Source: Halobacteriales archaeon SW_5_70_135 (GTDB taxonomy: Archaea > Halobacteriota > Halobacteria > Halobacteriales > SW-7-71-33). Taken from it: DNA of 51,839 nt. The notes under the pieces are model-generated. The model saw only the letters and a list, made by a program, of their open reading frames with translations, made no database searches and was not told the origin of the DNA. Of the stretch, positions 20,589 through 49,994 are shown piece by piece (the stretch's first letter is position 1; each line of letters opens with the position of its first letter). A program made the position numbers and the translations under genes. The stretch spans positions 1-51,839 of the forward strand of contig PXSK01000001.1 of NCBI GenBank assembly GCA_003022865.1, in the 5' to 3' direction.

Positions 20589-21136
20589 ATGCCCGTCGGA
20601 CACCCGGCCGACCGCACGAGCGACACCGGTACTCCGGAGGGCGCGGACGACCCCGAGGTGGCGGGCGGAGACGCCGCCGGTCCGGCGGAGCTGGTCGGCA
20701 CACGGCGACGGCTGCGCGTCGGCGCGGACCGCCCGGTCCGGACCAGCACCGGTCACCGGATCCTGGAGCACGACGGCGAGTGCTCGCGGCCCCACGGCCA
20801 CGACTACGAGGTGACCGTCGAGGTGGTCGGCCGCCCGACCGCCGAGGGCTGGGTGGCCGACAAGAGGACCGTCGCCGACGCGATCGAGGGGTGGGACCAC
20901 CGCCTCCTCGTCGAGGCGGGCGACCCGCTCGTGGAAGCGTTAAGCTGTCGGGCGACGGCGCGGTCGTCCTCGACCACCCGCCCACGGCGGAGGTGACGGG
21001 TGCCGTCCTCGAACGGAAGCTGCACGACCGTCTGCCGGACACCGTCGAGAGCGTCCGCGTCGAGGTGCGCGAGACGCGCGAACTGTCCGCCGGTCCCGAC
21101 CACGATCACGACACGACCGCGCTCGACTCGCCGTGA
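20589..21136 (+). pseudogene. queD: 6-carboxytetrahydropterin synthase QueD, frameshifted
   Basis: QueD makes 6-carboxy-tetrahydropterin, the second step towards preQ0 and archaeosine. From the ATG at 20589 the family sequence runs through STGHRILEHDGECSRPHGHDYEV (zinc His ligands) and DKRTVADAIEGWDHRLLVEAGDPLVEA. At about 20937-20945 the similarity jumps to another frame, continuing KLSGDGAVVLDHPPTAEV, LERKLHDRLPDTVES and VEVRETREL to the stop at 21134-21136. The DNA reads GCGTTAAGCTG; one extra base within TTAAG (as TTCAAG) would restore a full-length protein, so this is a one-base deletion. Apart from that, conservation is good. Either a recent pseudogene or a sequence error; see the findings for queE and queC. 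Confidence 0.82.
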
Positions 21137-21180
21137 CGCGGTCGCCCACCCGCCACGAGTCCATCCGACCTGACCTGACC

Positions 21181-21958
21181 ATGCCAGTCGACGCAGACCC
21201 GGAGATCGAGACGCAGACGGCCGGCGAGCGACCGGACCGCGCGCTCCCGGTCAACGAGCTTTTCAGCTCGGTCCGGGGCGAGGGAAAAGCTCGCCGGCGT
21301 CCCCTCGACGTTCGTCCGCACGAGCGGCTGCAACCTGCGGTGCTGGTTCTGTGACTCGTATCACACCTCCTGGGAGCCGACCCACGCCTGGCTCTCCGTC
21401 GAGGAGGTCGTCGACCGCGTCGCGGACCACGGCACCGACCACGTCGTCGTCACCGGCGGCGAGCCGACGGTCCACGACGAGGTCGAGACGCCGGTCGAGC
21501 GCCTCTCCGCGAGCGGTCACCACGTCGCCGTCGAGACCGACGGGACGGTCTACCGCGACACGGCCGTCGACCTCGCCAGCGTCAGTCCGAAGCTCGTCAG
21601 TTCGACACCTACCCCGGAGCGCGACCCCAAGGGCGACGGCGAGTGGGCCGAGCGCCACGACAGCCGGCGGGTCGACCTGGACGCGCTCGCGTCGCTGGTG
21701 GAGGCGTACGACGTCCAGCTGCAGTCCGTCGTCACCGACGGGAGAGACATACCGGAGACCGAGCGACTGGTGGAGCGGGCGCGCGACGCCGCGGCCGTGC
21801 CGGTCCGCGACGAGGACGTGCCACTGATGCCCGAGGGGGCGACCCGCGGGCGGCTCGACGAGACCCGCGAGCGGGTCGCGAACCTGGCCGTCGGGTACGG
21901 TTACCGCCACACACCCCGCCTGCACGTGGACGTCTGGGACGACGCGCCGGGGACTTGA
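21181..21958 (+). pseudogene. queE: 7-carboxy-7-deazaguanine synthase QueE, frameshifted
   Basis: Radical-SAM enzyme that converts 6-carboxytetrahydropterin to 7-carboxy-7-deazaguanine. The ATG at 21181 opens the frame through LPVNELFSSVRGEGK. Family similarity then continues one frame over with LAGVPSTFVRTSGCNLRCWF (cluster cysteines C-x3-C-x2-C), HVVVTGGEPTVHDEV, VETDGTVY, LASVSPKLVSSTP and the C-terminal LMPEGATRGRLDETRERV, to a stop at 21956-21958. The shift lies in AAAA at 21285-21288, where three A would keep the frame. All catalytic motifs are otherwise intact. The disruption is a single-base insertion in a short run, as real decay or sequencing error. Confidence 0.85.
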
Positions 21959-22084
21959 CCGCGTTCGTGGAGTCGGGTCGGGCGAGCGCGGGGCTGACGG
22001 GCGTCGACCTGCCCGTCGCTCGGAGTGTCGCACCACGCCGGACGAGACCGACGTACACAAGCCACGGGACCGCGTGGCACGGGT

Positions 22085-22787
22085 ATGACCGACGACGCCG
22101 GCGGCGCGGTCGTCCTGCTCTCCGGCGGGATGGACAGCGCCACCGCCGCCCACCTCGCCCGCGACGCGGGCCACAACCTGTACCTGCTGCACGCCTCGTA
22201 CGGCCAGGACACCGAAGACGTCGAGTTCGACCGCGCACGTCGCCAGGCCGAACGTCTGGCGGCCCGGGACTTCCTCCACGTCGAGACGGAACATCTCGCC
22301 CGGATCGGCGCGTCGAGTCTGACCGACGACGAGATCGAGATCGGCGACGCAGACCTCGACAGCGACGAGATCCCCGCCTCCTTACGTCCCGTTTCGCAAC
22401 GCCAACCTGCTGTCGATGGCGGTCTCGTACGCGGAGGCCAACGACTGTACGGCGGTGTACATCGGCGCCCACAGCGAGGACTACTCCGGCTACCCCGACT
22501 GCCGTCCGGAGTTCTTCGAGGCGTTCCAGCCGGTGATCGACGTCGGCACCCGTCCGGAGACCGAGATCGACCTGCGGGCGCCGTTCGTCGACGCCTCGAA
22601 GACAGAGATCGTCGAGCGGGGGCTCGACCTCGGCGTGCCGTACGACGACACCTGGTCGTGCTACCGGAACGAACCGCCGGCATGTGGCACCTGTGACGCC
22701 TGCGCGTTCCGACTCCAGGCGTTCCAGCGGGCCGGCGTCGAGGACCCGATCGAGTACGAGCGCCGGCCGACCTACGCCGAGGAGTGA
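22085..22787 (+). pseudogene. queC: 7-cyano-7-deazaguanine synthase QueC, frameshifted
   Basis: QueC uses ATP and ammonia to make preQ0. The 5' part from the ATG at 22085 shows the PP-loop (VVLLSGGMDSATAAHLA) and YLLHASYGQDTEDVEFDRA. The frame is lost after DSDEIPAS at 22379-22383. Similarity resumes one frame over as YVPFRNANLLSMAVSYAEAN, IGAHSEDYSGYPDCRPEFFE, APFVDASKTEIVERGLDLGV and the zinc cysteines CYRNEPPACGTCDAC. The DNA has TCCTTAC where TCCTAC would keep the frame, so this is a one-base insertion. The gene would otherwise be complete at about 233 residues. It is the third consecutive que gene with a single indel. Confidence 0.85.
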
Positions 22788-37258: not shown

Positions 37259-39085
37259 ATGACCGACGAAGACAAATTCACGACCGAGACGGATTCGACC
37301 GACGTATCGACCACTAATAACACAACTGGCGGAGCGGTCCACACCGCGATCAGCGCGGCTCTGGCTCGGCTGGGCCGCGTGCTGGCCCACTCGACCACCA
37401 CGGCCGACCAGCAGTCAGGGCCGGTGCTGATGGCCGACGGCGGCCAGAGCGACGCCAAGGTGATCGGTCACAACACCGACAATTCCGGCCAGACCGTCGG
37501 CGTCTGGGGCGAGGTCGACTCCACCGACGGCTGTGGGTTGGCCACCCCCGACGACGCCCGCATCGACGGCACACTCCTCACCAACGCCAGCGACTTCGTT
37601 GTCCAGACTGGCACCACCACCACCGAGGACGCACAGAACATCGTCGCCGGCCACGCCTCCAACAGCGTCACCGACAGCGCGGTCGGAGCCACCATCGCCG
37701 GCGGCGGGTTCGACGACGGCGAGTTCGACTTCGCCAACGTGGTCCACGACAACTACGGCACCGTCGGCGGCGGCGCCAACAATCAGGCTGGCAGTAACGA
37801 CAACGACCCCAGGACCGCTACATCTGCGACCGTCGGTGGGGGCTTCGAGAACACCGCCAGCGGCCCTGCTGCGACCGTCGGTGGGGGCGACAGTAACATC
37901 GCCAGCGCCAGGTATGCGACCGTCGGTGGAGGCAGCGGGAACAACGCCAGCGACATCTTTGCGACCGTCGGTGGGGGCCGCGGGAACAACGCCAGCGACG
38001 AGTATGCGACCGTCGGTGGGGGCATCGAGAACACCGCCAGCGCCAGATATGTGACCGTCGGTGGGGGCAACGACAACACCGCCAGCGCCAGGTATGCGAC
38101 CGTCGGTGGGGGCCAAAGCAACACCGCCAGCGACTTCAGGGCGACCGTCGGTGGGGGCCGCGGGAACAACGCCAGCGGCGGGAACGCGACCGTCGGTGGG
38201 GGCCGCGAAAACACCGCTAGCGCGCCCCAGGCGACCGTCGGTGGGGGCAACGGAAACGAGGCCAGCGGCAACTTGGCGACCGTCGGTGGGGGCGGCGGCA
38301 ACACCGCCAGCGGCAACTTGGCGACCGTCGGTGGGGGCGAAGAAAACACCGCCGGTGCCGCCTTTGCGACCGTCCCGGGCGGGCGGCGTGGCGCTGCGGA
38401 AAATCGCGAATCCTTCGTCTGGAACGACGGGACACAGTATCACCCGATCCCGAACAGTGACAACGATGGACTGTCCTCGGACACGGCGGTCAACAGCGAA
38501 CCCGTCACGGGGTCAGAGACGTTCAGCGTCGGCGCCACCGGCGGCGTCCGATTCATCACCGGGGGCGGCGTCACGTACATCTCCGGGGGCTCGACCGGCT
38601 GGAACACCACCTCGACGCGGACCGCCAAGACCAATATCGACCCGGTCGACCCCGAGCGAGCACTCGCAGGTGTCGACTCGATGGACGTGGCAACGTGGGA
38701 GTACGACGACGACGGCGACGGTGAGGCGGCGGGGACGACCCACATCGGGCCGATGGCCGAGGACTTCCACGACGCCTTTGACGTCGGTGACAGCGACGAA
38801 CACATCAACTCTGTGAATGCCCGCGGAGTGCTGTTCGCCGCCGTCCAGGGACTCTCGGAGGAACTCGACGGCAAAGAGGCACAACTCGACGACCAACGAG
38901 CCCGACTCGACGACCAGCGAGCACACATTGAGGAGTTGGAGGCGGACGCCGAGCGTAAAGACGACCGAATCGACAGCCAGCGAGCGCAACTCGACGACCA
39001 GCGAGCGCACATCGAGGAGTTGGAGTCGCGGCTGGAACGGCTCGAAGCCCACCTCGACACCGACGCCCAGCCAGCCGACGACTGA
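37259..39085 (+). CDS. Tail-fibre/adhesin-like beta-roll repeat protein with C-terminal S74-type chaperone domain
   Basis: 608 residues. A Thr/Asp-rich start and a hydrophilic N-domain (VIGHNTDNSGQTVGVWGEVD) lead to twelve perfect-length fifteen-residue repeats of pattern ATVGGGxxNTASxxx (residues 190-369), like the YadA head left-handed beta-roll. A joining domain follows. Then comes a segment like the S74 intramolecular chaperone of phage tail spikes and endosialidases: TSTRTAKTNIDPVDPERALA, WEYDDDGDG, HIGPMAEDFHDAF and SVNARGVLFAAVQGL. Ser452 and Lys457 keep the S-x4-K spacing used for self-cleavage. A coiled coil with two QLDDQRAHIEELE units ends it. No signal peptide is visible. Likely a trimeric fibre; the role (cell surface, virus-derived or adhesin) is not shown. 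Confidence 0.82.
   Translation: MTDEDKFTTETDSTDVSTTNNTTGGAVHTAISAALARLGRVLAHSTTTADQQSGPVLMADGGQSDAKVIGHNTDNSGQTVGVWGEVDSTDGCGLATPDDARIDGTLLTNASDFVVQTGTTTTEDAQNIVAGHASNSVTDSAVGATIAGGGFDDGEFDFANVVHDNYGTVGGGANNQAGSNDNDPRTATSATVGGGFENTASGPAATVGGGDSNIASARYATVGGGSGNNASDIFATVGGGRGNNASDEYATVGGGIENTASARYVTVGGGNDNTASARYATVGGGQSNTASDFRATVGGGRGNNASGGNATVGGGRENTASAPQATVGGGNGNEASGNLATVGGGGGNTASGNLATVGGGEENTAGAAFATVPGGRRGAAENRESFVWNDGTQYHPIPNSDNDGLSSDTAVNSEPVTGSETFSVGATGGVRFITGGGVTYISGGSTGWNTTSTRTAKTNIDPVDPERALAGVDSMDVATWEYDDDGDGEAAGTTHIGPMAEDFHDAFDVGDSDEHINSVNARGVLFAAVQGLSEELDGKEAQLDDQRARLDDQRAHIEELEADAERKDDRIDSQRAQLDDQRAHIEELESRLERLEAHLDTDAQPADD
37826..38365 (+). repeat. 45-bp minisatellite, twelve tandem units
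   Basis: Twelve in-frame 45-bp units share an almost invariant 18-base core, GCGACCGTCGGTGGGGGC, with variable filler. Such DNA can gain or lose whole units by recombination without breaking the frame, changing fibre length in 15-residue steps. Confidence 0.9.
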
Positions 39086-39109
39086 GCTGTGGGTCGCGGG
39101 ATTGTAGCC

Positions 39110-39380
39110 TACGCATTCCCGGGGGTCGGACACGAGCCAGAGCGTTCAGGCTCACCGCCCGAGGAGGAGTGTCTCTCCTATACCGTCCCAGGTTAACCCG
39201 AAGGACTCAATCGGGACGACCACATTCGGCCGGAGATACCACACACCCCCGAGAGGGCAAGTCCCAACGGGGAGTGCACTGACCGGAGTACCGGCGACGG
39301 GAAACTTGCCTTCGTGGGTGCGGCATAGCCAACATCCCCACCGGAGGAATCTCACGGCTTCAGCCGTGGGAGGATGTCAA
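39110..39380 (+). mobile_element. IS200/IS605-type right end with candidate omega-RNA region, transposase lost
   Basis: The segment ends in CACGGCTTCAGCCGTGGGAG and GATGTCAA, a form I recognise from right ends of haloarchaeal TnpB-carrying (IS1341-type) elements. The preceding 200 bases are rich in short complementary blocks (CCCGAGAGGGCAAGTCC with GGGAAACTTGCC; CCGGAGTACCGGCGACGG), the expected setting of the structured RNA that TnpB uses as guide. No TnpB frame remains. A short frame closing at about 39196 (EPERSGSPPEEECLSYTVPG) may be its last codons. Family assignment rests on memory of these ends, not on an alignment. Confidence 0.5.
39353..39368. repeat. Subterminal hairpin of the IS200/IS605-type end
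   Basis: CACGGCT and AGCCGTG form a perfect 7-bp stem with a two-base loop, 12 bases inside the element end. Such hairpins are recognised as single strands by the TnpA transposases of this superfamily. Confidence 0.65.
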
Positions 39381-39524
39381 TTCGCGCTCGCGGCGCTGCT
39401 GTGCGACACCTGGGTCACGATAGACGCGCTTTTGCACGAACGGATGGACCGACCGCCGCGTGGGCGTGCCATCCCATTCGGCCGCGCTGTGGAATATATC
39501 CAGGAGCGGACTGGCGTCGGATAA
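39381..39524 (+). pseudogene. C-terminal fragment of a DDE transposase
   Basis: Directly after the element end, the frame FALAALLCDTWVTIDALLHE, RMDRPPRGRAIPFGRAVEYI, QERTGVG-stop resembles the last helix region of IS4/ISH3-like haloarchaeal transposases (membrane-like LAALLCDTWVTIDALL is typical there). Nothing upstream belongs to it, so it is a relic, possibly the gene into which the IS200/IS605-type element had inserted. Similarity is judged by eye only. Confidence 0.4.
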
Positions 39525-40425
39525 GGGCGGCTGCTGGCTTCCGATACCGGCCGTCGCTCGGTAGCGACGCACCTCTGACGAGTGGTATTCTCACGCCAAT
39601 TCGAAAACGAATCGAGAACTCGGTGATTCGTCAGTCTGTTGCTCCGCAGGGACGACTAAATCGAACTTCATTCCCCAAAACAGGTGTTTCAGGCGCTGTA
39701 CTGCCTATAAAGTCGGATCATCTGACGGCTAGCTTGTGTATAGTCACATGCAGTTTACGAGTTCCGCCAGCGACTCGACAGAGACACTCGGTCGCGAGTA
39801 AGTATGGCCCGACGTCGAGAGATCGCTTTCGATCGGGCACGGTCCGACTGGAAAGGATTCGGGAGCCCCGACTAGCGCGCGTTCGCAGTGCACGTCACCG
39901 GAGTTAGTAAGAGAGTGTTCCGGACTGAGAGGTCTCGGCATGCGGAACGGAGAACGACGTCAGTCGACACCGTCGGGAGGGTCGAGAGACGCGAACGGAG
40001 TCTCTCGGGGCACGAGCGTGCTCACGAACCGGTCCGGCTTCAGTGCAGTGACGGTCGGTGAAGCCAGCGAGGACGGAGTGTGTAGTCCGCGGCCGCGGTA
40101 CTGAGCCGGAAACAGCGTGTCCTGCTCCGGGCTGTAGACGCAGATCGAGACGACGGTGCTCACGCGGGCAGGACCGAGTGACAAGCGGAGTGGGCTCGGT
40201 GAGAGTCTCACGAGGTCGAGTGGAGTCCAAGCTCGCGCCCGGAGCGGTCGCTGTGGGGGGCAGGCTCAATGATCGTGGATTCTGTGTCTCTTCCCTTCCT
40301 GGCTGGTATCAGAAAACACGATCAGCAGTCATCGGAAGCCGAAACGGGGCCACAGTTCGGAGGATCAGACCCCTGATCGTGGTGTCTGACGTAGTTTCTT
40401 GAGGGCGGCGAGCGTCGCGGCATGT
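39525..40425. other. Long stretch without a recognisable gene
   Basis: About 900 bp of mixed composition between transposon relics and the integrase pair. Short frames exist on both strands (for example a minus-strand 83-codon frame at 39960-40211), but none has family similarity or the codon bias of neighbours. Probably degraded mobile DNA. Confidence 0.45.
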
Positions 40426-40755
40426 ATGCCGGAGGAGACGGACCGAACAGCCGTCCGGACGTACGTGCCGGCGTACCAGAAGGACGAGTGGGCCAGAGCG
40501 GCCGAGGCGATGGACATGTCCCGGAGCGAGTTCGTGCGGACGATGGTAGAGGAGGACGTCACCCCAGGGGTCGAGCCCCTGAAGACGCGGATCCTCAACG
40601 CTCTCGAGGACGGCCCGCTCTCGTGGGAAGCGATCGTCGCCGAGATCACAGAGGACGTCGAACGACGAGCCGAGAACTGCTTGCAGGAGCTGCAGGCGGC
40701 GGGCCGGCTGCGCCACAGCGGCCGAGAGGGAGGGTACGTGTTGACCGATGAGTGA
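40426..40755 (+). CDS. DUF5805-like small DNA-binding protein
   Basis: 109 residues from the ATG at 40426. The N-terminal half has a ribbon-helix-helix pattern (AVRTYVPAYQKDEWARAAEA, MDMSRSEFVRTMVEED). The C-terminal half has a winged-helix pattern (ILNALEDGPLSWEAIVAEIT, CLQELQAAGRLRHSGREGGY). This two-part layout matches haloarchaeal DUF5805 proteins, which are repeatedly encoded just before a tyrosine recombinase. Here the two genes overlap by eight bases, so they are cotranscribed and translationally coupled. It probably assists or regulates the recombinase; not demonstrated. Confidence 0.75.
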   Translation: MPEETDRTAVRTYVPAYQKDEWARAAEAMDMSRSEFVRTMVEEDVTPGVEPLKTRILNALEDGPLSWEAIVAEITEDVERRAENCLQELQAAGRLRHSGREGGYVLTDE

Positions 40756-41740
40756 GACGAGTGAAGCTACTCGGGAGCCGGTGTCGTACTTCATTGAGGA
40801 GATGGAGTACCACGGCAAGAGCGAGCGGACGCTGGCGGCGTACGAGCGAACGCTGCGCCGCTTCGAGCGGTTCCTGGAATCGGAGCGGTGTCCGTCTCCG
40901 GGGGTCGACACCGGTCGGGCCGGCCGACGGGAGTGTATGGCCTGGGTCCACGCCCTCCGTGACGACCTGGCGGCGTCGTCGGTGGCGACGTACGCCTCCT
41001 ATCTGCATCGCTTCTACGACTACATGGTGCGCGTGGACGCCTTCGAGGAGAACCCGATGGCGCTCGTCCGGGAGGAGATGGACGAAACTGTCGAGGCGGA
41101 CCCGACACGTCGAGAGGTGACGATCCCGGACATGCGCGAGCTCGTCGCCGGCGTCGGCCACCCGCTGGACCGCGCGCTGGTAGTCACACTGCTGAAAACC
41201 GGCGTCAGAGTCGGCGAGCTCTGCAATCTCGACCTCCGTGACCTGAACCTCTCCGTCGTGAACTCCTTCGGCGTCGACCCGCGTCCGGCCGTCGAGGAGC
41301 GACCGCAGTCCCTGTACGTGAACGGAGCGATAGACCGCGGAGCGGTCGTCAACGACGAGGAGCGCACCGCCGCCAACAAGCGACGCCGCTCGACCGTCGT
41401 TCCGGTCGACGAGGAACTCGAGACGACGCTGACCCGGTGGCTGGCGGTGCGTCCGGACCCGCGGTCCTCGGCGGAGCCGCTCTTCTGCTCGACGCGGGAG
41501 TGGGGACGACGCGTCACCCCGGCGATGGTCCGCCGGACCGTCCGCGAACACGCCCGCGAGCGGGGCTGGTACCGCGAGGGCGCCGGCAGCGACGAGAACG
41601 TCACCCCACACTACTTCCGGCACTTCTTCACGACGCACCTGCGGGACCGCACCGGTGACCGAGGCGTCGTCAAGTATCTCCGCGGCGACGTGGCGAGCGA
41701 CATCATCGAAGAGAGTGCTCGTTCGCCGCCGGACAGATAA
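40748..41740 (+). CDS. Tyrosine recombinase (XerC/D-like), C-terminally truncated
   Basis: 330 residues. The N-terminal SAM-like core-binding domain (about 15-105; YHGKSERTLAAYERTLRRFE) is complete. Catalytic Arg is in LLKTGVRVGELCNLDL, Lys probably in NKRRRSTVVPV, and His/Arg in TPHYFRHFFTTHL. After KYLRGDVASDIIEE, where relatives continue to the nucleophilic Tyr, the sequence changes to SARSPPDR and stops. No tyrosine follows, so the protein should not be able to cut DNA. The stop is in AT-richer sequence unlike the gene, suggesting that the 3' end was replaced. Integrase of a former element, now probably inactive. Confidence 0.78.
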   Translation: MSETSEATREPVSYFIEEMEYHGKSERTLAAYERTLRRFERFLESERCPSPGVDTGRAGRRECMAWVHALRDDLAASSVATYASYLHRFYDYMVRVDAFEENPMALVREEMDETVEADPTRREVTIPDMRELVAGVGHPLDRALVVTLLKTGVRVGELCNLDLRDLNLSVVNSFGVDPRPAVEERPQSLYVNGAIDRGAVVNDEERTAANKRRRSTVVPVDEELETTLTRWLAVRPDPRSSAEPLFCSTREWGRRVTPAMVRRTVREHARERGWYREGAGSDENVTPHYFRHFFTTHLRDRTGDRGVVKYLRGDVASDIIEESARSPPDR

Positions 41741-42171
41741 ACTGCATGTCGCTATACGAAATTTGGCTCCGCGGTGGACCTCTGTAATGTGCAGGCCTAC
41801 AAATTAAACGCCGATCAAGCTTTTCGAAAACACGGGGCTGCCTCTCTCGGACACCAAGGAGATCGAAATCCCGGTCGACCTCATCAGGGGCCTTCGCGAG
41901 TACAGGTAGATGCTGTCGGGCGAATCTCACAGAATTACGATATTCCGGGGGACTACGACACTGGTCCAACGGTAACCGGTGCTATAACCATCCGAGCTTG
42001 ATTTAGATGGGCTGAGACCACTCGCCGCATATGATCGACTCTATGATATCCGATCGACTGGAAAGACCCTGATAATCTACACCGATACGAGGCAGAGCGG
42101 TTCAGGGCAAGGGACTGGAATGAATTTACTCAGGGTATCTGCGCGAACGTGAAAGAAACCATTATTCAAAA
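41741..42171. other. Low-GC stretch with a possible protein-end fragment
   Basis: AT-rich compared with the rest of the window. One plus-strand frame at 41808-41909 reads TPIKLFENTGLPLSDTKEIE and IPVDLIRGLREYR-stop, which looks like the end of a real protein whose start is gone; family unknown. Nothing else was recognised. Confidence 0.3.
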
Positions 42172-42805
42172 TTAATTGGTGACCGCTACTAAATGGAACT
42201 GACACTCCCGGCGGGCGACGACGACCTCCAGCGCGAGTGGAATCGAGCGCTCGATCCGGTCGCCACCGTCGAGCCGGGAGCGGTCGTCCAGTTCGACACC
42301 CCTGACGCCCGCGACGGTCAGTTCTCCCTCCGGACCACCGTCGCGGACGTCGGCGACGAACTCGTCGGCGAGCTCCTCGACGCTCGCGCCGCCGAGCCGG
42401 TCGGAGTGAGCGTCCTGCGTGTAGTATGCCGTCCCGTGGACGGCCGTGACGCCGGTCTCGCGGGCGACACCGCGGACCCGCCGTAGGCCCGCACCCGTCC
42501 CCTTCGGCGCCACGTCGACGAGGGTATCCCCGCCGGCACGGTGGTAGTAGTCGACCCCCGTGACCGCGTCTCGAACGACGCCACTCGCAGACTGTCGCGG
42601 TACTGGGTCGGGTTGGGACGGACGTACCAGAGGTTCTCGATCGCGAGCGGCTCGCGGGCGAGACGGCGCTCGTACGCCGTGTCCGGCCGGTCGAGCTTCT
42701 CGGGTGTCCACGACGGAGACACGTGTGTTCGTGTGGCAGGACGACACCGAGGTCGTCCGGGTCGACACACCCCTCGACGGTGATGACACTGCCGGCGTCG
42801 GCCAT
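42172..42805 (-). pseudogene. Phosphotriesterase-family hydrolase, multiply frameshifted and truncated
   Basis: From the ATG at 42805 the family N-terminus VEGCVDPDDLGVVLPHEHTC (metal-binding His-x-His) is readable. The frame then changes to give EKLDRPDTAYERRLAREPLA, IENLWYVRPNPTQYRDSL. A further change gives DAVTGVDYYHRAGGDTLVDV, GTGAGLRRVRGVARETGV and TAVHGTAYYTQDAHSDRL, then DEFVADVRDG. After that the similarity ends and about half of the usual 300-plus residues is missing. At least two frameshifts and a 3' truncation make it non-functional. It is next to broken SDR and aldo/keto reductase genes, so a catabolic cluster has decayed. Confidence 0.72.
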
Positions 42806-42927
42806 GCGGCAGTGGACGACGCTCGGACGCATAACTGAACTGTACTGTAGGGTGTCTCCGGTGTCGGGTCCACACTCGACCACGGACAGTGAAAACGCAC
42901 TTGTACTGTCCCTGGAACGTGGCTGGC

Positions 42928-43613
42928 ATGAACCTCGGAATCGAGGGCGACGCGGCACTCGTGACGGCATCGAGTAGCGGACTGGGAAAGGCGTCGGCGA
43001 CCGCACTGAGCCGAGAGGGTGCCGACGTCGTGATCAACGGCCGTGACGAGGACCGACTCGCGACGGCGAGAGCCGAGATCGAGGAGGTGGCCGCCGGCAG
43101 GGTCGTCACCCACCCAGCGGCGCCTTTCTGGAGACGACCGACGAGGACTGGTACGAGGCGTTCGACCTCCTGGTGATGAGTGTCGTCAGGCTCGTCCGTG
43201 AGGCGGCACCACACCTCAGGGCGGACGGTGGGACCGTCGTCAACATCACCTCTCGCAGCGTCAAGGAGGCGATCGACTCGCTGGTGCTCTCGAACTCCGT
43301 CCGGATGAGCGTCGTCGGCCTGGAGAAGACGCTCTCGACGGAACTCGCCCCCGAGATACGGGTCAACGCCGTCCTTCCGGGCTCTCACGAGACCTCGCGT
43401 ATCGAGAACCTCGTCGAGGCGGCCGTCGAGCGCGGCGAGTACAACTCCTACGAGGAGGGAATGCGGGCCCGCGGAGAGAGCGTCCCGATCGGCCGGGTCG
43501 GCGATCCGATGGAACTCGGCGACACCGTCGCCTATCTGTGCTCGGAGCGGGCGGGCAACATCAACGGCCAGGCGGTCGTGATAGACGGCGGGTCCGGGAG
43601 CGCGAACCTGTAG
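42928..43613 (+). pseudogene. Short-chain dehydrogenase/reductase with internal deletion and frameshift
   Basis: The ATG at 42928 opens MNLGIEGDAALVTASSSGLG, with the NAD(P) glycine motif and KASATALSREGADVVINGRD. At about 43110-43120 the reading frame breaks: the expected middle (the N-A-G-G region) is absent and similarity resumes one frame over with GAFLETTDEDWYEAFDLLVM. It continues with NITSRSVKEAIDSLVLSNSV (no standard Tyr at the catalytic position), LSTELAPEIRVNAVLPGSHE and the C-terminal AYLCSERAGNINGQAVVIDG. About 40-50 residues are missing together with a shift, so it is a pseudogene. Confidence 0.75.
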
Positions 43614-43731
43614 CGGGCGAGTCCGCACCGGCCGGCAGTCGGTCGACTGGCGTCCGCGGCGGACCGCGTTCCCGACCGGGCCAGCGCCCACGAGCGAGTG
43701 ACTTCTCTCGCCTCTCTTCGAGCGGGGTGGC

Positions 43732-44108
43732 GTGGACCTCGACACGGTGCGGACGGGACGAACCGGACTGTCGGTGAGTGAACTGGCGCTGGGAACCGCC
43801 CGCTTGGGGAACGAGCACGACGACGGAACCGAAGAGGTCGACCGCGAGACAGTCCACGCACTGCTGCTCGACCGGCACGCCGCGGCCGGCGGCGACGTCG
43901 TCGACCTCGCGGACGTGTACGGCGGCGGAGCCGCGGAGCGGTACGTGAGCGACTGGCTCGCGGACAGGGACCGAGAGCGGTTCGTGCTCGCCTCGAAGGT
44001 GTATTGGCCGACCGACCCGGACGACCCCGACAGGTAGGGGCTGAACCGCAAGCGCCTGCGCCGGCAGGTCGGCCGCATCTCGGACCGACTCGACATCGCA
44101 GCCGTACC
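43732..44108 (+). pseudogene. Aldo/keto reductase fragment with in-frame stop
   Basis: From the GTG at 43732: VRTGRTGLSVSELALGTARL, then VVDLADVYGGGAAERYVSDW (catalytic Asp/Tyr region) and DRERFVLASKVYWPT (catalytic Lys). A TAG at 44035-44037 interrupts it, after which the same frame continues GLNRKRLRRQVGRISDRLDI before similarity ends. About one third of a normal 320-residue enzyme remains. Broken together with its neighbours. Confidence 0.75.
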
Positions 44109-44298
44109 GTCGTTACGGGACCATTACACTACTACAGCTGTAATGGCCTTCTTTCGTTCAGTAGACTGAACTCAGGGGAGCGGGGGACCGACTCTCTGCC
44201 GGTCGGAGACTACTGACCGTCAGCCCGTCCGCGCCCTCTGGCTGGCCGGAGGGAGTCGACTGGCGCGGCACCGTCCCGTTCCGCTGGTCGCGGACCCT
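44109..44298. other. Junction after the decayed cluster
   Basis: No gene. It contains short palindromes: TACAGCTGTA near 44135 and TTCAGT-AG-ACTGAA at about 44157-44170. These may be mobile-element relics or chance. Confidence 0.25.
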
Positions 44299-45342
44299 CT
44301 ACGAGCGGGTGGCGCTGGCGGGACGACCGACCTGTCGGGATGCGGGTTCTCCACGCCGTCCGAGTCGGCTGAGCCGGTCGTCGTCGTACCAGAAACTACC
44401 TCGGACCGACACCTGCGGGCCGCCGACGCTGTCCCGATCGCGGTCGACGGTGCGGCGCTCGATCGACCTCGGAGCGTACTGGAGCCACGCCGGCGGCGTG
44501 ACGGTGATCGACCCGACACGCTCGAACTGGTACTGCTCCACGACTCGAAGGAGGACGTCCTCGGTTCGGAACCCGTACCGGAGTTCCAGTCGCTCGACGA
44601 GTCCCTGTCGGGCGACGACCGCCAAGACGGACACGTTCCGCACGGCAGGGTCGGTCGCGTTCCGAACGAGCCAGGCCCCCTGCCCCTGCCCGATCTCCCC
44701 GTCGATCACGTACACAGCTGTCCCGTTACGCTCCACGCGCGTGACGTTCCGGCCGGCGGTGGCGCTCAGAATGCAAACCAGTCGCGTCCGGACGGTGACG
44801 TCCCGGTCGAGTACGTCACTGACCCTGAGCGGACGACCCGTCTCGTCGACGTACTCGACGTATCCCGCCGGGCCGCTGTCCTCCCGGACCTGAACGACCG
44901 GGCGATCGGCTCCGGCCGACCAGTACCGGGTTGTGACCCACTGCCGGTCGCGTTCCCAGTGCTCCTCGGAGAGCGCGTAGCGGGTCCTGTCGGCCGCAAC
45001 TCGTCCACGGATACGGTCCTTCCGGAGGACCGAACCGTTCGGCGCCCTGACGACTCGCTCCCGTCGCAAGACGAACGACTGACCCTCCAGCGCGAACCGG
45101 TGAGCGCTCGCCAGTCTGGAACCGTTCTCGGCGACGTTCGGGTCACAGAACCCGAGCGCACGCCGTTGTCGGCGCGAGAGCCACAGCTCACGCCGGCGGT
45201 CGCCGGCGACGACGTCCGAGTCACGCTGGATTTCGACGGTGACGGGCTCGACGCACTCGCCGACGCGGTGACCGCTGTCGGTCGCGACGAGTAGCGGACG
45301 GCGGCGGCTTCCTCGCCGCGAACCCCACGGTCGGAGAGACAT
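44299..45342 (-). CDS. DUF7537-like haloarchaeal protein lacking a signal peptide
   Basis: Up to 347 residues. The middle resembles the DUF7537 lipoprotein family: NVAENGSRLASAHRFALEGQ, SFVLRRERVVRAPNGSVLRK, RYWSAGADRPVVQVREDSGP, VTRVERNGTAVYVIDGEIGQ, GLVERLELRYGFRTEDVLLR and ITVTPPAWLQYAP. Relatives start with a lipobox signal peptide; here residues 1-60 are an arginine-rich stretch without hydrophobic core. After the usual end there are about 55 extra Arg/Asp-rich residues. Both ends may therefore be replaced sequence, and the gene is possibly a pseudogene. Function of the family is unknown. Confidence 0.5.
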   Translation of the reverse strand: MSLRPWGSRRGSRRRPLLVATDSGHRVGECVEPVTVEIQRDSDVVAGDRRRELWLSRRQRRALGFCDPNVAENGSRLASAHRFALEGQSFVLRRERVVRAPNGSVLRKDRIRGRVAADRTRYALSEEHWERDRQWVTTRYWSAGADRPVVQVREDSGPAGYVEYVDETGRPLRVSDVLDRDVTVRTRLVCILSATAGRNVTRVERNGTAVYVIDGEIGQGQGAWLVRNATDPAVRNVSVLAVVARQGLVERLELRYGFRTEDVLLRVVEQYQFERVGSITVTPPAWLQYAPRSIERRTVDRDRDSVGGPQVSVRGSFWYDDDRLSRLGRRGEPASRQVGRPASATRS

Positions 45343-45406
45343 ACCAGTCCGGCTTTACTTCTGTCACAATGCGGCCGGGGCTTTCGACCGCGCTGTAACT
45401 TATCGA

Positions 45407-45480
45407 GAGGGTGTGATAGAACTGTTCCCACACCCAGATCGAGAGTCGCTCAAGCCAGGTAAACGATGTACAGAACACGT
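45407..45480 (+). repeat. Terminal repeat copy A of a MITE-like element
   Basis: GAGGGTGTGATAGAACTGTT followed by CCCACACCC and, further on, GTACAGAAC aligns with the left end of the element at 47519 (15 of 16 bases in the first block and scattered identity over about 70 bases). No inverted partner was found nearby, so this is a solo end. Confidence 0.55.
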
Positions 45481-45581
45481 GACGACATACTCCTGTCAGG
45501 AAAGGTATAAAAAGTACAGGGGTGAAGTCAGCGGAGTGACTCCGTTTCCTCCCCTGCTGTAGAGAACTCACCGCAGTGGAA

Positions 45582-46235
45582 TCACTTCCCCTGAAATGCA
45601 GAAATAACGGAGTCTGCGGCGTCAGGATCGGTTGCGACGATATACCGTTCGCCGGCCTCCAATCGCGTTTCAGAGGTAGCTGTCCGCTCTCCCCCGGCTC
45701 CAGAGATCACGAGACTGCCTTCGGGAAGATCGACATCGGCGAGACGTTGTTCCGCCACCGTCGAATCGACGGCAACGCGGATATCGAACACTTCCATCTC
45801 ACCAGTAACCTCCTCGAACGTTCGCACGTCGCTCCCACTGAGTGCGTTCACCGCAGTTTTGACGCTCGCACGCTCAGGGAACACGACCTCGTCGACGAGT
45901 TGTTCGTACTCGTCGGCATCGGCATTAGTGATACGCGCGGTCGTTCGGATATCCGGTCGGAACGTCTTCGCAGCCAAGCAGACTGCGAGATTAGTGCTGT
46001 CGCTGTCTGTCAGCGCGCCGATAACGGTCGTGTCGTCCGCGAGAGCACTCGACAGCACGGCCGGATTTGTCGCGTCACCTCCCACTACAGTAATACCGTC
46101 CGACTCCTCCGCGTGCAACTGATCCGGGTCCTTCTCAATAATCGTCACTTCACTTCCGCGCTGTTTGAAAAATTGAGCGACTCGAAAGCCAACGCGTCCA
46201 CCGCCAGCGATCACTATTCGACTATTGCTGCCCAT
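45582..46235 (-). CDS. TrkA/KTN-domain (RCK) protein
   Basis: 217 residues from the ATG at 46233-46235. An N-terminal NAD-binding RCK domain covers about 5-120 (RIVIAGGGRVGFRVAQFFKQ, VTIIEKDPDQ, VVGGDATNPAVLSSALADDT, NLAVCLAAKTF). A C-terminal TrkA-C domain covers about 135-217 (EVFDIRVAVDSTVAEQRLAD, LEAGERYIVATDPDA). Such proteins gate K+ channels or Trk/Ktr transporters in response to nucleotides. No transporter gene is adjacent, but a second TrkA-type gene and kdp lie 5 kb away. The ATG follows a TATA box at correct distance. Confidence 0.85.
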   Translation of the reverse strand: MGSNSRIVIAGGGRVGFRVAQFFKQRGSEVTIIEKDPDQLHAEESDGITVVGGDATNPAVLSSALADDTTVIGALTDSDSTNLAVCLAAKTFRPDIRTTARITNADADEYEQLVDEVVFPERASVKTAVNALSGSDVRTFEEVTGEMEVFDIRVAVDSTVAEQRLADVDLPEGSLVISGAGGERTATSETRLEAGERYIVATDPDAADSVISAFQGK

Positions 46236-46257
46236 ACGCGCCGAGTACGGTAACACA

Positions 46258-46266
46258 TCTTAAAAA
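46258..46266 (-). promoter_or_regulatory. TATA box of the island TrkA-type gene
   Basis: Read on the minus strand, TTTTTTAAG is centred about 27 bases before the ATG at 46235. Confidence 0.55.
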
Positions 46267-46410
46267 ACCATCCCCTGGTCGGACGAAGCGGGCCGCCGAC
46301 TCGGTACGGAAAGCCATGTCCACCACGACTCCCCATATCTCCGACCGACCCGCTCGCGTAGCAGATCGAATCGGAAGTTCACGACCGAGCAACCACTGAT
46401 TAAAGCCCGC

Positions 46411-46665
46411 CCAGGTTGACCACCTCCGAGACGTGTGTTTTACCGACGCCGTCCCGACGTATCTTCCAGACTGAAACGAGGCGATCGTCGCGCTCGCCTA
46501 CGACGCCGGCCTCCGAGTCGGGGAACTCGTCGCGCTCGACACCGACTACGTCGACCCCCGAGGCGAGAACGGTCTGCCTGTCGAGCCGAACCCAGGAGGG
46601 GAGCCCGCCGGCGCGGCCGGATCGTCGGTCGTCTCTCGTCTGATACTTGGACATCCACCGTTGTA
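46411..46665 (+). pseudogene. Tyrosine recombinase fragment with in-frame stop
   Basis: One plus frame reads QVDHLRDVCFTDAVPTYLPD, then TGA, then NEAIVALAYDAGLRVGELVA and LDTDYVDPRGENG, which is the block around the catalytic Arg of XerC-like integrases. It runs on into unrelated sequence and a stop at about 46665. N-terminal domain and the His/Tyr motifs are absent. It is a second integrase relic in the island. Confidence 0.6.
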
Positions 46666-46873
46666 ACTGTTTGGTAAGACTGGCTCGGTAATCACTGATG
46701 CGTCCACGCCCGCGCGGCAAGAACTTACCGAGTCACTGCCCGATATCAGGACCGCCAGCCCCGGCTCAGAACGCGATACTCGACCGGTCACGGACAGGAC
46801 AACGGGGCGACTGGTGTCGTGACTCTGCTCTGGAACCAACACACATACGCCGATTGACGTGGAGTCTGGACTG

Positions 46874-47443
46874 ATGAGTGAAAGTAGTGACGAACCATGC
46901 TGTAAGATCACCCGAGTCGCACAGGCGTATCGCGTCCGAGACGTCGATACGAAACTACTACAGCGACGAGAACAGGGGACTAGCCTACGCGAACTGGCGA
47001 TATTTTTCAACAAGCAGATTCTTTCCGAGGCGCTCGATCGGGCCACACAGGAAGTGATCGGTGACGCAGAAACGATCTACGAGGTTCTGATGGACCGGTC
47101 GAAACTGGCCCGATACAATGTCGATATCGATGACGTCCAGCAAGATTTCGTCTCGCATCAGACCGTCCGGAACCATCTCAACGGCTGTAGAGAGATAGAT
47201 ACAGGGAGGGAATCTGCTTTCGATCTCGAAGCTGGGAAAAAAACTATCGAGTGGGCGCAGGCTCGCTCTGAAGGAGTGATCGAGCAGACGATCGAGCGAC
47301 TCAGGAACGCAGGAGAAGTGACGGGCACCCGAACCGAAGTGACACAGTCCGTTCGGGTGGCGTGTTCCGCCTGTGGACAGTCGTATCGAATCGAAGCATT
47401 CCTCGAACGAGGTGGATGCGGCTGTCGCCCCGACTCGGATTGA
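46874..47443 (+). CDS. rdfA: Rod-determining factor RdfA-like protein
   Basis: 189 residues from the ATG at 46874. The RdfA pattern is clear: CKITRVAQAYRVRDVDTKLL near the start, then GTSLRELAIFFNKQILSEAL, ETIYEVLMDRSKLARYNVDI and DDVQQDFVSHQTVRNHLNGC. The C-terminus has a small zinc-knuckle (CSACGQSYRIEAFLERGGCG). In Haloferax volcanii RdfA is needed for rod cells and acts upstream in cell-shape signalling; many haloarchaea carry extra paralogues in accessory DNA. A gene for an archaea-specific SMC-related protein follows in the same direction, the usual partner, here separated by 0.6 kb of inserted DNA. Confidence 0.85.
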   Translation: MSESSDEPCCKITRVAQAYRVRDVDTKLLQRREQGTSLRELAIFFNKQILSEALDRATQEVIGDAETIYEVLMDRSKLARYNVDIDDVQQDFVSHQTVRNHLNGCREIDTGRESAFDLEAGKKTIEWAQARSEGVIEQTIERLRNAGEVTGTRTEVTQSVRVACSACGQSYRIEAFLERGGCGCRPDSD

Positions 47444-47518
47444 TTTGACATCGTCTCACAGCCGAAAACGCGGGAATTCCACAGTACCGCACCGCTAGGT
47501 CGGAATATTAGGTTTGTA

Positions 47519-47974
47519 GAGGGTGTCATAGAACAGTTCACATACCCTGATGGCCGTCCGACGAGCGGTAAGTACAGAACGTGCATCTTCCACGGAATAA
47601 TCAATAGAAGCTCTATGCACAGGGCACGTCGATTCAAAGACCAATTTCAATTAGCCGGATGAGATGACGTACATCCCGAGAAGTGTAGCGACAATTCCCA
47701 CCAGTACGGCAGGAGTCTGGAGTCCACTCGTCCAGAGCATTGCACCGGTGAAATACCCGAACATCACGGCGAACGTCGCCGTCCACTGCCACGACCACCA
47801 CTTGGAGGTCGCCTCTGAACTCGTACCCATACGAGCACGATTATATATCGTAATACAAGAAGTTGTTGCCACCCGAGAAACAGGAGTGTGTTGGACTCGC
47901 AAACTTGCTTATCGGCGTGTTCACCCCGACACGGATGAAACCAACACTGTGGGAAGCGTTCTATGACAACCCTC
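47519..47974. mobile_element. MITE-like element with imperfect terminal inverted repeats
   Basis: The left end GAGGGTGTCATAGAACAGTT (47519) is repeated inverted at the right end, where the minus strand reads GAGGGTTGTCATAGAACGCT (from 47974). The TTCnCA following the core is also shared. The trinucleotide GTA directly flanks both ends, which may be a target duplication. The 456-bp span encodes no transposase, only a tiny membrane protein. A third copy of the end is at 45407. No family name can be given. Confidence 0.55.
47651..47830 (-). CDS. 59-residue two-helix membrane protein
   Basis: From the ATG at 47828-47830: a polar, Ser/Trp-rich start (MGTSSEATSKWWSWQW), helix one (TATFAVMFGYFTGAMLW), a short turn and helix two (TPAVLVGIVATLLGMYVI), ending SSG. 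A clean hairpin of two membrane spans with AT-rich promoter-like DNA upstream (ACGATATATAATCG on the minus strand) argues for a real gene. It lies entirely inside the MITE-like element between rdfA and the SMC-related gene. Family unknown; membrane micro-protein. Confidence 0.6.
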   Translation of the reverse strand: MGTSSEATSKWWSWQWTATFAVMFGYFTGAMLWTSGLQTPAVLVGIVATLLGMYVISSG

Positions 47975-48021
47975 GTACTCTTCCCGTTATTTATATCAGA
48001 ACACGAGTACGTCCCACACGG

Positions 48022-48030
48022 CTTATTTAT
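48022..48030 (+). promoter_or_regulatory. TATA box of the SMC-related gene
   Basis: CTTATTTAT lies 21-29 bases before the ATG at 48051, so this gene has its own promoter and does not depend on readthrough from rdfA. Confidence 0.6.
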
Positions 48031-48050
48031 CCCTGCCGAATAGCGGGCGT

Positions 48051-49994
48051 ATGAGCCAGCTCGACACGGGAGGGCCTGTGACGGTGTATGCGGAGAATAT
48101 CGGAGGACTCTCGGAGTCTGAGGTGACACTGCAGCCGGGTGTCACAGTTCTCCGAGGCAAGAACGCGACCGGACGGACGTCGTTGCTCAAGGGTCTGACT
48201 GGAGTCCTCGGTGGCTCGACACCCGCTCTCAGAGGCAACACGGAGAAGGGCCGTATCCAGCTGGAGTGGGGAGACGACATCTATAATCAACGTCTGGAAC
48301 GTAAGAACGGAACTGTACGGACGTCCGGACAGACCGTCACCGAACGGAGTGATCTCGTGAATCTCTTCGTCTCTTTGACCGAGAATAACCCCGCACGCAG
48401 GGCAGTCGTTCAGGACGAGGACCTGCGGGACATCATCATGCGACCCGTCGACACCGACGCGATTCGACGCCGAATTGAGGAGTTACAGGGTGAGCGAAAC
48501 CGAATTGGCCAGCGACTCCGGTCCATCGAGCAGGAGTTGGATCGCCGCACGAACGTCACGTCTCGTAGAGCGTCCCTGAAAAACGAACTCGACGAACTCG
48601 ACGATCAGATCACCGAACTACGCGAACAGCTGGCCGGGTACGACGCCGACCCAGAGAAAGCTGAACAGGTAGAAGAGGCCCTGAACTCACTGGAGGAGCG
48701 GAAGCAGAGACTCGACTCGATCAGCAATCGGATTCGGACCAACGAGGACACCCTCGAAGTACTCCGTGACGAACGGACGGAACTCCAGACGGAACAGAGC
48801 TCCATCGAGACTTCGGAGGAAGAGCTCACACGGATCGAGACGAAACTTTCCGAACTCACTTCCCGGGAGCGTTCCCTTGCAACAACTATCAACGACCTCT
48901 CCGCGATCGTAGACTTCAATGAGGAGTTGGTTTCGGACACCAGTCCGGAGTTCCTTCTCTCGGACGATGTCGACTCCGCTGTGGCGAAACTGAACCCGGC
49001 GTCCGAGTCCGTCCGGTGCTGGACGTGTGGCAGTCAAGTCGACCGGAGTCGGGTTTCGGAACGATTGGATGAACTTCGAAGCGTAATCGAGGAAAAGAGG
49101 GCGGAACGTACTGACGTCCAGTCACAGATCGAAGACCTCCGTGGGAACCGAGAGGAACTACAGAACGAAATCGAACGCCAGGACGAACTCAGTCGTCGTC
49201 TCGACGAGATTTCGACTGAAATCGCTCAGCGGGAGCAGAAGCTCGAGTCACTACGAGGCCGGCGGAACGAAACCCGCCGGCAGCTCTCCAGTCTCAAGGA
49301 ACTCGTCTCGGAACGAGAAACGTTACAAGGAAGCGAACTGGTAGACCAGTATCAACGGCTCAGTGAGCTCGAGTACGAGCGTGGACAGCTAGAGGAGGAA
49401 CTATCGTCAGTCCGGGAAGAAATCGCGGAGCTGGATCGCCTCGCGGACGAGCAGGAGCAGCTCCGGGCTCAGCAAGACGAGATCCGGGAGGAGCTAAAGG
49501 GCCAACGAACTCAGATTCGAGACCTCGAAGAAAGTGCGATCGAGGCGTTCAACGAACATATGGACGAGATCCTCGAGATACTCGACTACAGAAACGTCGC
49601 CCGTATCTGGATCGAACGAAAAGCGGGGACGGAGTTCGACTCGAGCCGCGGTGGCTACCGTGGGGGATCCGCGACCAGGTTCGAGCTACACATCGTGCGC
49701 GAATCCGACCAGGGGACCGCCTATGAGGACACTATCGCTAATCTTAGCGAAAGTGAACGTGAGGTCGTCGGACTGATCGTTGCGTTGGCGGGCTACTTAG
49801 TGCACAACGTCTACGAGGTAGTTCCGATGATGCTCCTGGATTCGTTGGAAGCCGTCGATGCAGACCGAATTGCCGACTTGGTCGATTACTTCGGTGAGTA
49901 TACGTCATATCTTGTCGTCGCCTTGCTCCCCGAAGACGCTAACGTCCTCGGTGACGGCTGTGCACACGTCCCTGCGGAGGATCTGAGGTCATAG
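48051..49994 (+). CDS. Archaea-specific SMC-related protein (ASRP)
   Basis: 647 residues. The N-terminal ATPase half has the divergent nucleotide loop LRGKNATGRTSLLKGL, where Arg stands in place of the usual Walker Lys, a feature I associate with this family. A long coiled coil (about 135-520) is broken by a zinc-hook CxxC (VRCWTCGSQV, about 321-330). The C-terminal half carries the signature NLSESEREVVGLIVALAGYL and Walker B with D-loop VVPMMLLDSLEAVD. Such Rad50/SMC-like proteins are coupled to rdfA genes and implicated in cell shape or chromosome organisation. AT-richer codon use than the core genes fits an acquired region. Confidence 0.87.
   Translation: MSQLDTGGPVTVYAENIGGLSESEVTLQPGVTVLRGKNATGRTSLLKGLTGVLGGSTPALRGNTEKGRIQLEWGDDIYNQRLERKNGTVRTSGQTVTERSDLVNLFVSLTENNPARRAVVQDEDLRDIIMRPVDTDAIRRRIEELQGERNRIGQRLRSIEQELDRRTNVTSRRASLKNELDELDDQITELREQLAGYDADPEKAEQVEEALNSLEERKQRLDSISNRIRTNEDTLEVLRDERTELQTEQSSIETSEEELTRIETKLSELTSRERSLATTINDLSAIVDFNEELVSDTSPEFLLSDDVDSAVAKLNPASESVRCWTCGSQVDRSRVSERLDELRSVIEEKRAERTDVQSQIEDLRGNREELQNEIERQDELSRRLDEISTEIAQREQKLESLRGRRNETRRQLSSLKELVSERETLQGSELVDQYQRLSELEYERGQLEEELSSVREEIAELDRLADEQEQLRAQQDEIREELKGQRTQIRDLEESAIEAFNEHMDEILEILDYRNVARIWIERKAGTEFDSSRGGYRGGSATRFELHIVRESDQGTAYEDTIANLSESEREVVGLIVALAGYLVHNVYEVVPMMLLDSLEAVDADRIADLVDYFGEYTSYLVVALLPEDANVLGDGCAHVPAEDLRS

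Follow-up and report, generated by a model that had tools for sequence, protein, structure and literature searches.

Among the closest described counterparts of the locus analyzed here is the preQ0/archaeosine pathway of Haloferax volcanii, with queE (HVO_1717) and queC (HVO_1716) under adjacent locus tags and a TGT (HVO_2001) (PMC3017900). Haloferax deletions of queE and of queC are viable and leave the cells without archaeosine in defined medium, and preQ0 salvage in rich medium has been proposed for them (PMC3017900). From bacteria, a salvage-only configuration has been described, in which queD, queE and queC are missing while TGT and a transporter of the COG1738/YhhQ type are present; COG1738 proteins are found in archaea as well, where salvage of preQ0 was considered likely (PMC5372724).

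The genome draft of Halobacteriales archaeon SW_5_70_135 (G000) encodes the same enzymes as Haloferax volcanii, with queE and queC as neighbors and with both a TGT and a second TGT-domain protein of the ArcS type, but its three preQ0 genes are all frame-broken, and no YhhQ was found in it, as opposed to one homologue in the Haloferax volcanii control genome. It resembles the bacterial salvage-only configuration in that TGT is kept while preQ0 synthesis looks impaired, as also in 14 of 44 relatives, and differs from it in that queD, queE and queC are nearly intact and no YhhQ was detected. A third likeness is to the frameshifts that arise as artefacts in draft assemblies (from miscalled homopolymers and wrongly closed gaps): there is an assembly-wide excess of breaks, essential genes are hit, one-base breaks lie in short homopolymer runs, and N gaps and losses of about 70–100 bases occur. 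Unlike typical artefacts of this kind, however, the draft has three one-base breaks side by side in one pathway.

Materials and Methods

The window, that is, the whole stretch of DNA that was analyzed, is the entire contig C1 (51,839 bases) of G000. This haloarchaeal draft comprises 43 contigs totaling 1.77 Mb and is 63% complete, so that it lacks about 37% of the genome. No tRNA or Rfam features were found in the window. Frame switches were located with a hidden Markov model (HMM) for which codon usage was the sole training input, without homology, and which was trained for G000 on its own genome; a switch was counted as strong when at least 120 bases were coding on each side. In total, 983 kb of G000 was scanned in stretches. 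As controls, each trained separately, we used 400 kb of G054, a haloarchaeal relative assembled as one contig of 3.77 Mb, and 575 kb made up of stretches of about 12 kb around queC from 49 haloarchaeal records. An early homology comparison against 400 kb of G054, with 34 usable genes, was superseded by the codon HMM and by a G054 reference enlarged to 1.2 Mb.

Presence and absence of pathway genes were compared across 44 haloarchaeal genomes at least 90% complete, out of G001–G058. A second genome of the same genus was not among the relatives searched, the nearest belonging to another genus in the family. Erosion was measured as the deviations of the window's proteins at positions where conservation among the other sequences reached 95% or more, with the intact pyrD and idsA of the same contig as controls.

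Results and Discussion

The three genes stand consecutively in the window:

20589..21136, forward strand: queD (6-carboxytetrahydropterin synthase), one frame break at about 20940; translation, frame HMM, TIGR03367 and comparison with G054
21181..21958, forward strand: queE (radical SAM 7-carboxy-7-deazaguanine synthase), break at about 21283–21288, RGEG in place of QGEG
22085..22787, forward strand: queC, PF06508 in two frames, TIGR00364 across the break, net +1 relative to G054

Translation of 20589–22787 in all frames showed a single frame change in each gene, with both flanks open. The HMM placed the switches at 20939/20940 in queD, 21354/21355 in queE and 22380/22381 in queC; in queE the break is seen by eye at the A run at about 21283–21288 and the HMM switches slightly later, while queC reads in two frames (22085–22380 and 22381–22787) and in no single uninterrupted one. 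The sites of one frame change per gene reported in the initial annotation were thus reproduced by translation and HMM in agreement. In BLAST comparisons with G054, queC is net +1 and queD net −7, the latter being a one-base-class (−1) change plus a codon-length difference. The que breaks lie in short homopolymer runs.

The NCBIfam and PDB matches of the que genes continue past the breaks. QueC passes TIGR00364 (177.6 bits, cut-off 150.3), its residues 8–209 aligning with positions 1–201 of 201 with an X at the break. QueD reaches 55 bits with TIGR03367 (E 7e-15, cut-off 89) in a match that spans the break, and its best alignment is to a haloarchaeal QueD, with identity of up to 69%. For QueE, the best NCBIfam match is TIGR03365, at 83 bits against a cut-off of 206 (these cut-offs are based on bacterial members), and among solved proteins it matches a QueE best (E 1.5e-18). 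The three-cysteine iron-sulfur motif of QueE, CNLRCWFCDS, is present in the post-break frame. The QGEG motif near the N terminus, on the other hand, reads RGEG, although Q occupies the first position in three solved QueE sequences and in 95% or more of 72 haloarchaeal homologues, and further near-invariant sites are changed as well, so that the earlier statement that all catalytic motifs are conserved does not hold. A second queC copy as an explanation for the broken one was discarded, as the other PF06508 matches in G000 are weak (24–25 bits).

The que breaks are present in the sequence as deposited, and many more are spread through the assembly, including in genes that cells cannot lack. Over 983 kb of G000, the HMM recorded 44 strong switches (approximately 45 per Mb), with unusual gene junctions possibly among them, to which the controls are equally exposed; by the same method, G054 gave 1 in 400 kb and the other haloarchaeal loci 3 in 575 kb (2.5–5 per Mb), which makes the excess in G000 significant (P ~1.5e-9). 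Broken genes include gyrA, pheT, kae1-bud32, that of the RFC small subunit (where the break is located within an apparent intein), nuoM and truD. All of these are expected to be necessary for a haloarchaeon. No second full copy of any of them was found in the G000 stretches searched, where nuoM has only distant antiporter-type paralogues.

Because the whole draft is full of breaks, indispensable genes included, the que breaks are probably a fault of the assembly and not the mark of a dying pathway; we estimate at about 77% the probability that all three arose as consensus or assembly errors, the draft being of low quality. The organism itself would probably have an intact queDEC cluster and produce preQ0, which would be turned into archaeosine at tRNA position 15 via TgtA (arcTGT) and ArcS. 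The que breaks may well share the origin of the other breaks and probably arose when single bases were miscalled in short homopolymer runs. The initial annotation had offered a local cluster of consensus errors as one explanation; consensus errors are supported here, but not as a local event, since breaks occur assembly-wide. As it stands, the apparent pseudogenes of this assembly are untrustworthy without reads.

Sizing of the breaks against G054 separated two classes, namely losses of 68–103 bases and one-base-class breaks. To the former belong nuoM, truD, a short-chain dehydrogenase and others, and gyrA, bud32 and pheT resemble it, judging from profile coordinates. G000 also contains N gaps of 57–143 bases, beside which the core-gene losses of about 70–100 bases look like wrongly closed gaps. 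That the sized core-gene breaks are mostly losses of 68–103 bases, and not of the one-base class seen in que, speaks against attributing the que breaks to error. One-base breaks do occur outside que, mostly in short homopolymer runs as judged by eye. Examples are a DUF7125 gene, with a co-linear family match (residues 5–209 on 3–207) and the break inside it, and a GT4 glycosyltransferase, whose domain (56–206 on 1–151) is co-linear across the break. A pyridine nucleotide-disulfide oxidoreductase-like gene (with two breaks), a solute-binding protein, a copper-binding (halocyanin-like) protein and a GNAT protein were also matched across breaks. The density of indels in other core genes of the assembly had been named in the initial annotation as a refuting test. 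This was largely borne out, since breaks proved frequent in those genes, although the one-base class is densest at que.

Clustered breaks are found elsewhere in G000, with two in one gene in each of the stretches L121 and L128 and three within 4.3 kb in L136. With breaks scattered randomly along the coding sequence, the probability of some triple within 1,442 bases ranged from 0.13 (47 breaks) to 0.71 (102 breaks), so that the three-hit cluster, earlier considered striking, is not clearly beyond chance given the assembly-wide density of breaks (P at least 0.13). Counting one-base breaks alone, the que triple is rarer than these values imply, and que is the sole cluster in the tested set with three one-base breaks so near each other. 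The rarity of the one-base triple relative to the all-class triple is the main remaining argument for a biological origin.

Such an origin would be a genuine and recent loss of preQ0 synthesis, in which relaxed selection would have allowed one frame-breaking indel into each of queD, queE and queC, while tgtA and ArcS were kept, either fed by salvaged preQ0 or next to go. We regard it as unlikely, although it accounts directly for three one-base breaks held by one pathway. The spread of both break classes over the assembly, essential genes included, argues against it. The state of the proteins themselves gives a mixed answer. QueE carries RGEG and is the worst of the three, with 8 of 79 near-invariant sites deviating, and QueD stands at 163 of 169 in the ranking by GC excess over G054 at the first two codon positions (QueE 121, QueC 53), both of which would suit decay; QueC is the best preserved, with 1 of 59. 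Taken together, however, QueD, QueE and QueC deviate at 12 of 180 conserved sites, against 17 of 251 for pyrD and idsA, so that the three que genes are on the whole no more eroded than intact genes of the same contig, and intact idsA deviates as highly as QueE; with que homologues drawn from a smaller but broader set, the value rises somewhat (30 of 293). The absence of clear additional erosion overall suggests that the que proteins were under selection until very recently, or still are. Decay by substitution was therefore not counted as a pseudogene sign: QueE looked strongly eroded, mostly through A/T-to-G/C changes, but intact idsA and pyrD together show an equal overall rate, and GC has drifted relative to G054 throughout the lineage. 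The Q-to-R change in the QGEG motif of QueE nevertheless weighs against the reading of the breaks as errors and is a loose end.

The remainder of the archaeosine pathway bears on the same question. In G000, tgtA and the gene for the second TGT-domain protein of the ArcS type adjoin each other on contig C9 with open frames (517 and 656 residues), and FolE2 on contig C31 is open too. YhhQ/COG1738, the preQ0 transporter, was not found in the 63% of the genome at hand. The search proposed in the initial annotation for arcTGT, ArcS and a preQ0 transporter therefore returned tgtA and an ArcS-like gene, both open, and no YhhQ. The last result counts against a loss compensated by uptake, with 37% of the genome missing. 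The suggestion of a very recent loss of preQ0 synthesis finds no support in any feature that clearly sets que apart from the rest of the assembly: breaks are common, essential genes are hit, the que sites are no more eroded overall, and the other archaeosine genes found are open.

Among the 44 relatives, 14 are without a strong QueC, all 44 have TGT, and YhhQ is present in all 14 that are without QueC, whereas the four relatives without YhhQ all have QueC; the zero overlap, with no genome devoid of both, is not significant alone (approximately 0.2 by chance). This pattern fits salvage, and for haloarchaea with TGT and YhhQ but without QueC it predicts preQ0 uptake from neighbors. It points to repeated loss of preQ0 synthesis among the haloarchaeal relatives, with salvage likely. 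In the same-family genome G001 (86% complete), neither QueC nor PTPS was found. Since many relatives no longer have QueC, a real loss has a fair prior probability, to which the viability of the Haloferax queC and queE deletions adds (PMC3017900), and preQ0 salvage in the lineage of G000 is biologically plausible. A real loss would mean that a deep-branching haloarchaeal lineage is giving up the entire preQ0 branch in one go, arcTGT and ArcS being kept, as one event in an order-wide recurrent loss, a course that we consider rather improbable. If true, it would offer a snapshot of a tRNA-modification pathway moving from synthesis to salvage. Finally, programmed frameshifting, in which one ribosomal shift per que gene would yield full-length enzymes, might be suggested by the exact number of one shift per gene and by the good similarity that continues in the new frame, but it was rejected as extremely improbable, as neither the direction nor the context of the que shifts is uniform, no common slippery site could be recognized, and in the listed relatives QueC is read in an open frame without a shift.

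With regard to the remainder of the window, the initial annotation had described the other core genes as reading through. Most of them do, but two genes are frame-broken:

42172..42722, reverse strand: phosphotriesterase-family gene, frame-broken; frame HMM, PF02126
42889..43613, forward strand: short-chain dehydrogenase, frame-broken, about 103 bases short relative to G054; frame HMM, PF13561

Both lie in a gene-poor part of the window (39086–48356) that also holds a phage-type integrase (40781–41740) and long intervals without coding signal, and that possibly represents an island, integrated or decaying. Next to it, 37259–39085 encodes a protein of 608 residues whose Peptidase_S74 endosialidase-chaperone domain is commoner in phage tail proteins.

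A further observation concerns contig C34, where a segment of stretch L145 (9464–9556, minus strand) includes 34 bases identical to queC (22683–22716 of the window). The fragment is non-coding and is flanked by two 29-base palindromic near-repeats (GTGGGCGCAA..TTGCCTCYCAC), an arrangement that resembles a one-spacer array; the near-repeats were absent from the 97 other haloarchaeal genomes and viral contigs searched. We do not tie this fragment to the que frame breaks. Since the queC of another haloarchaeon matches the fragment over 40 bases at 95%, it need not derive from the host queC.
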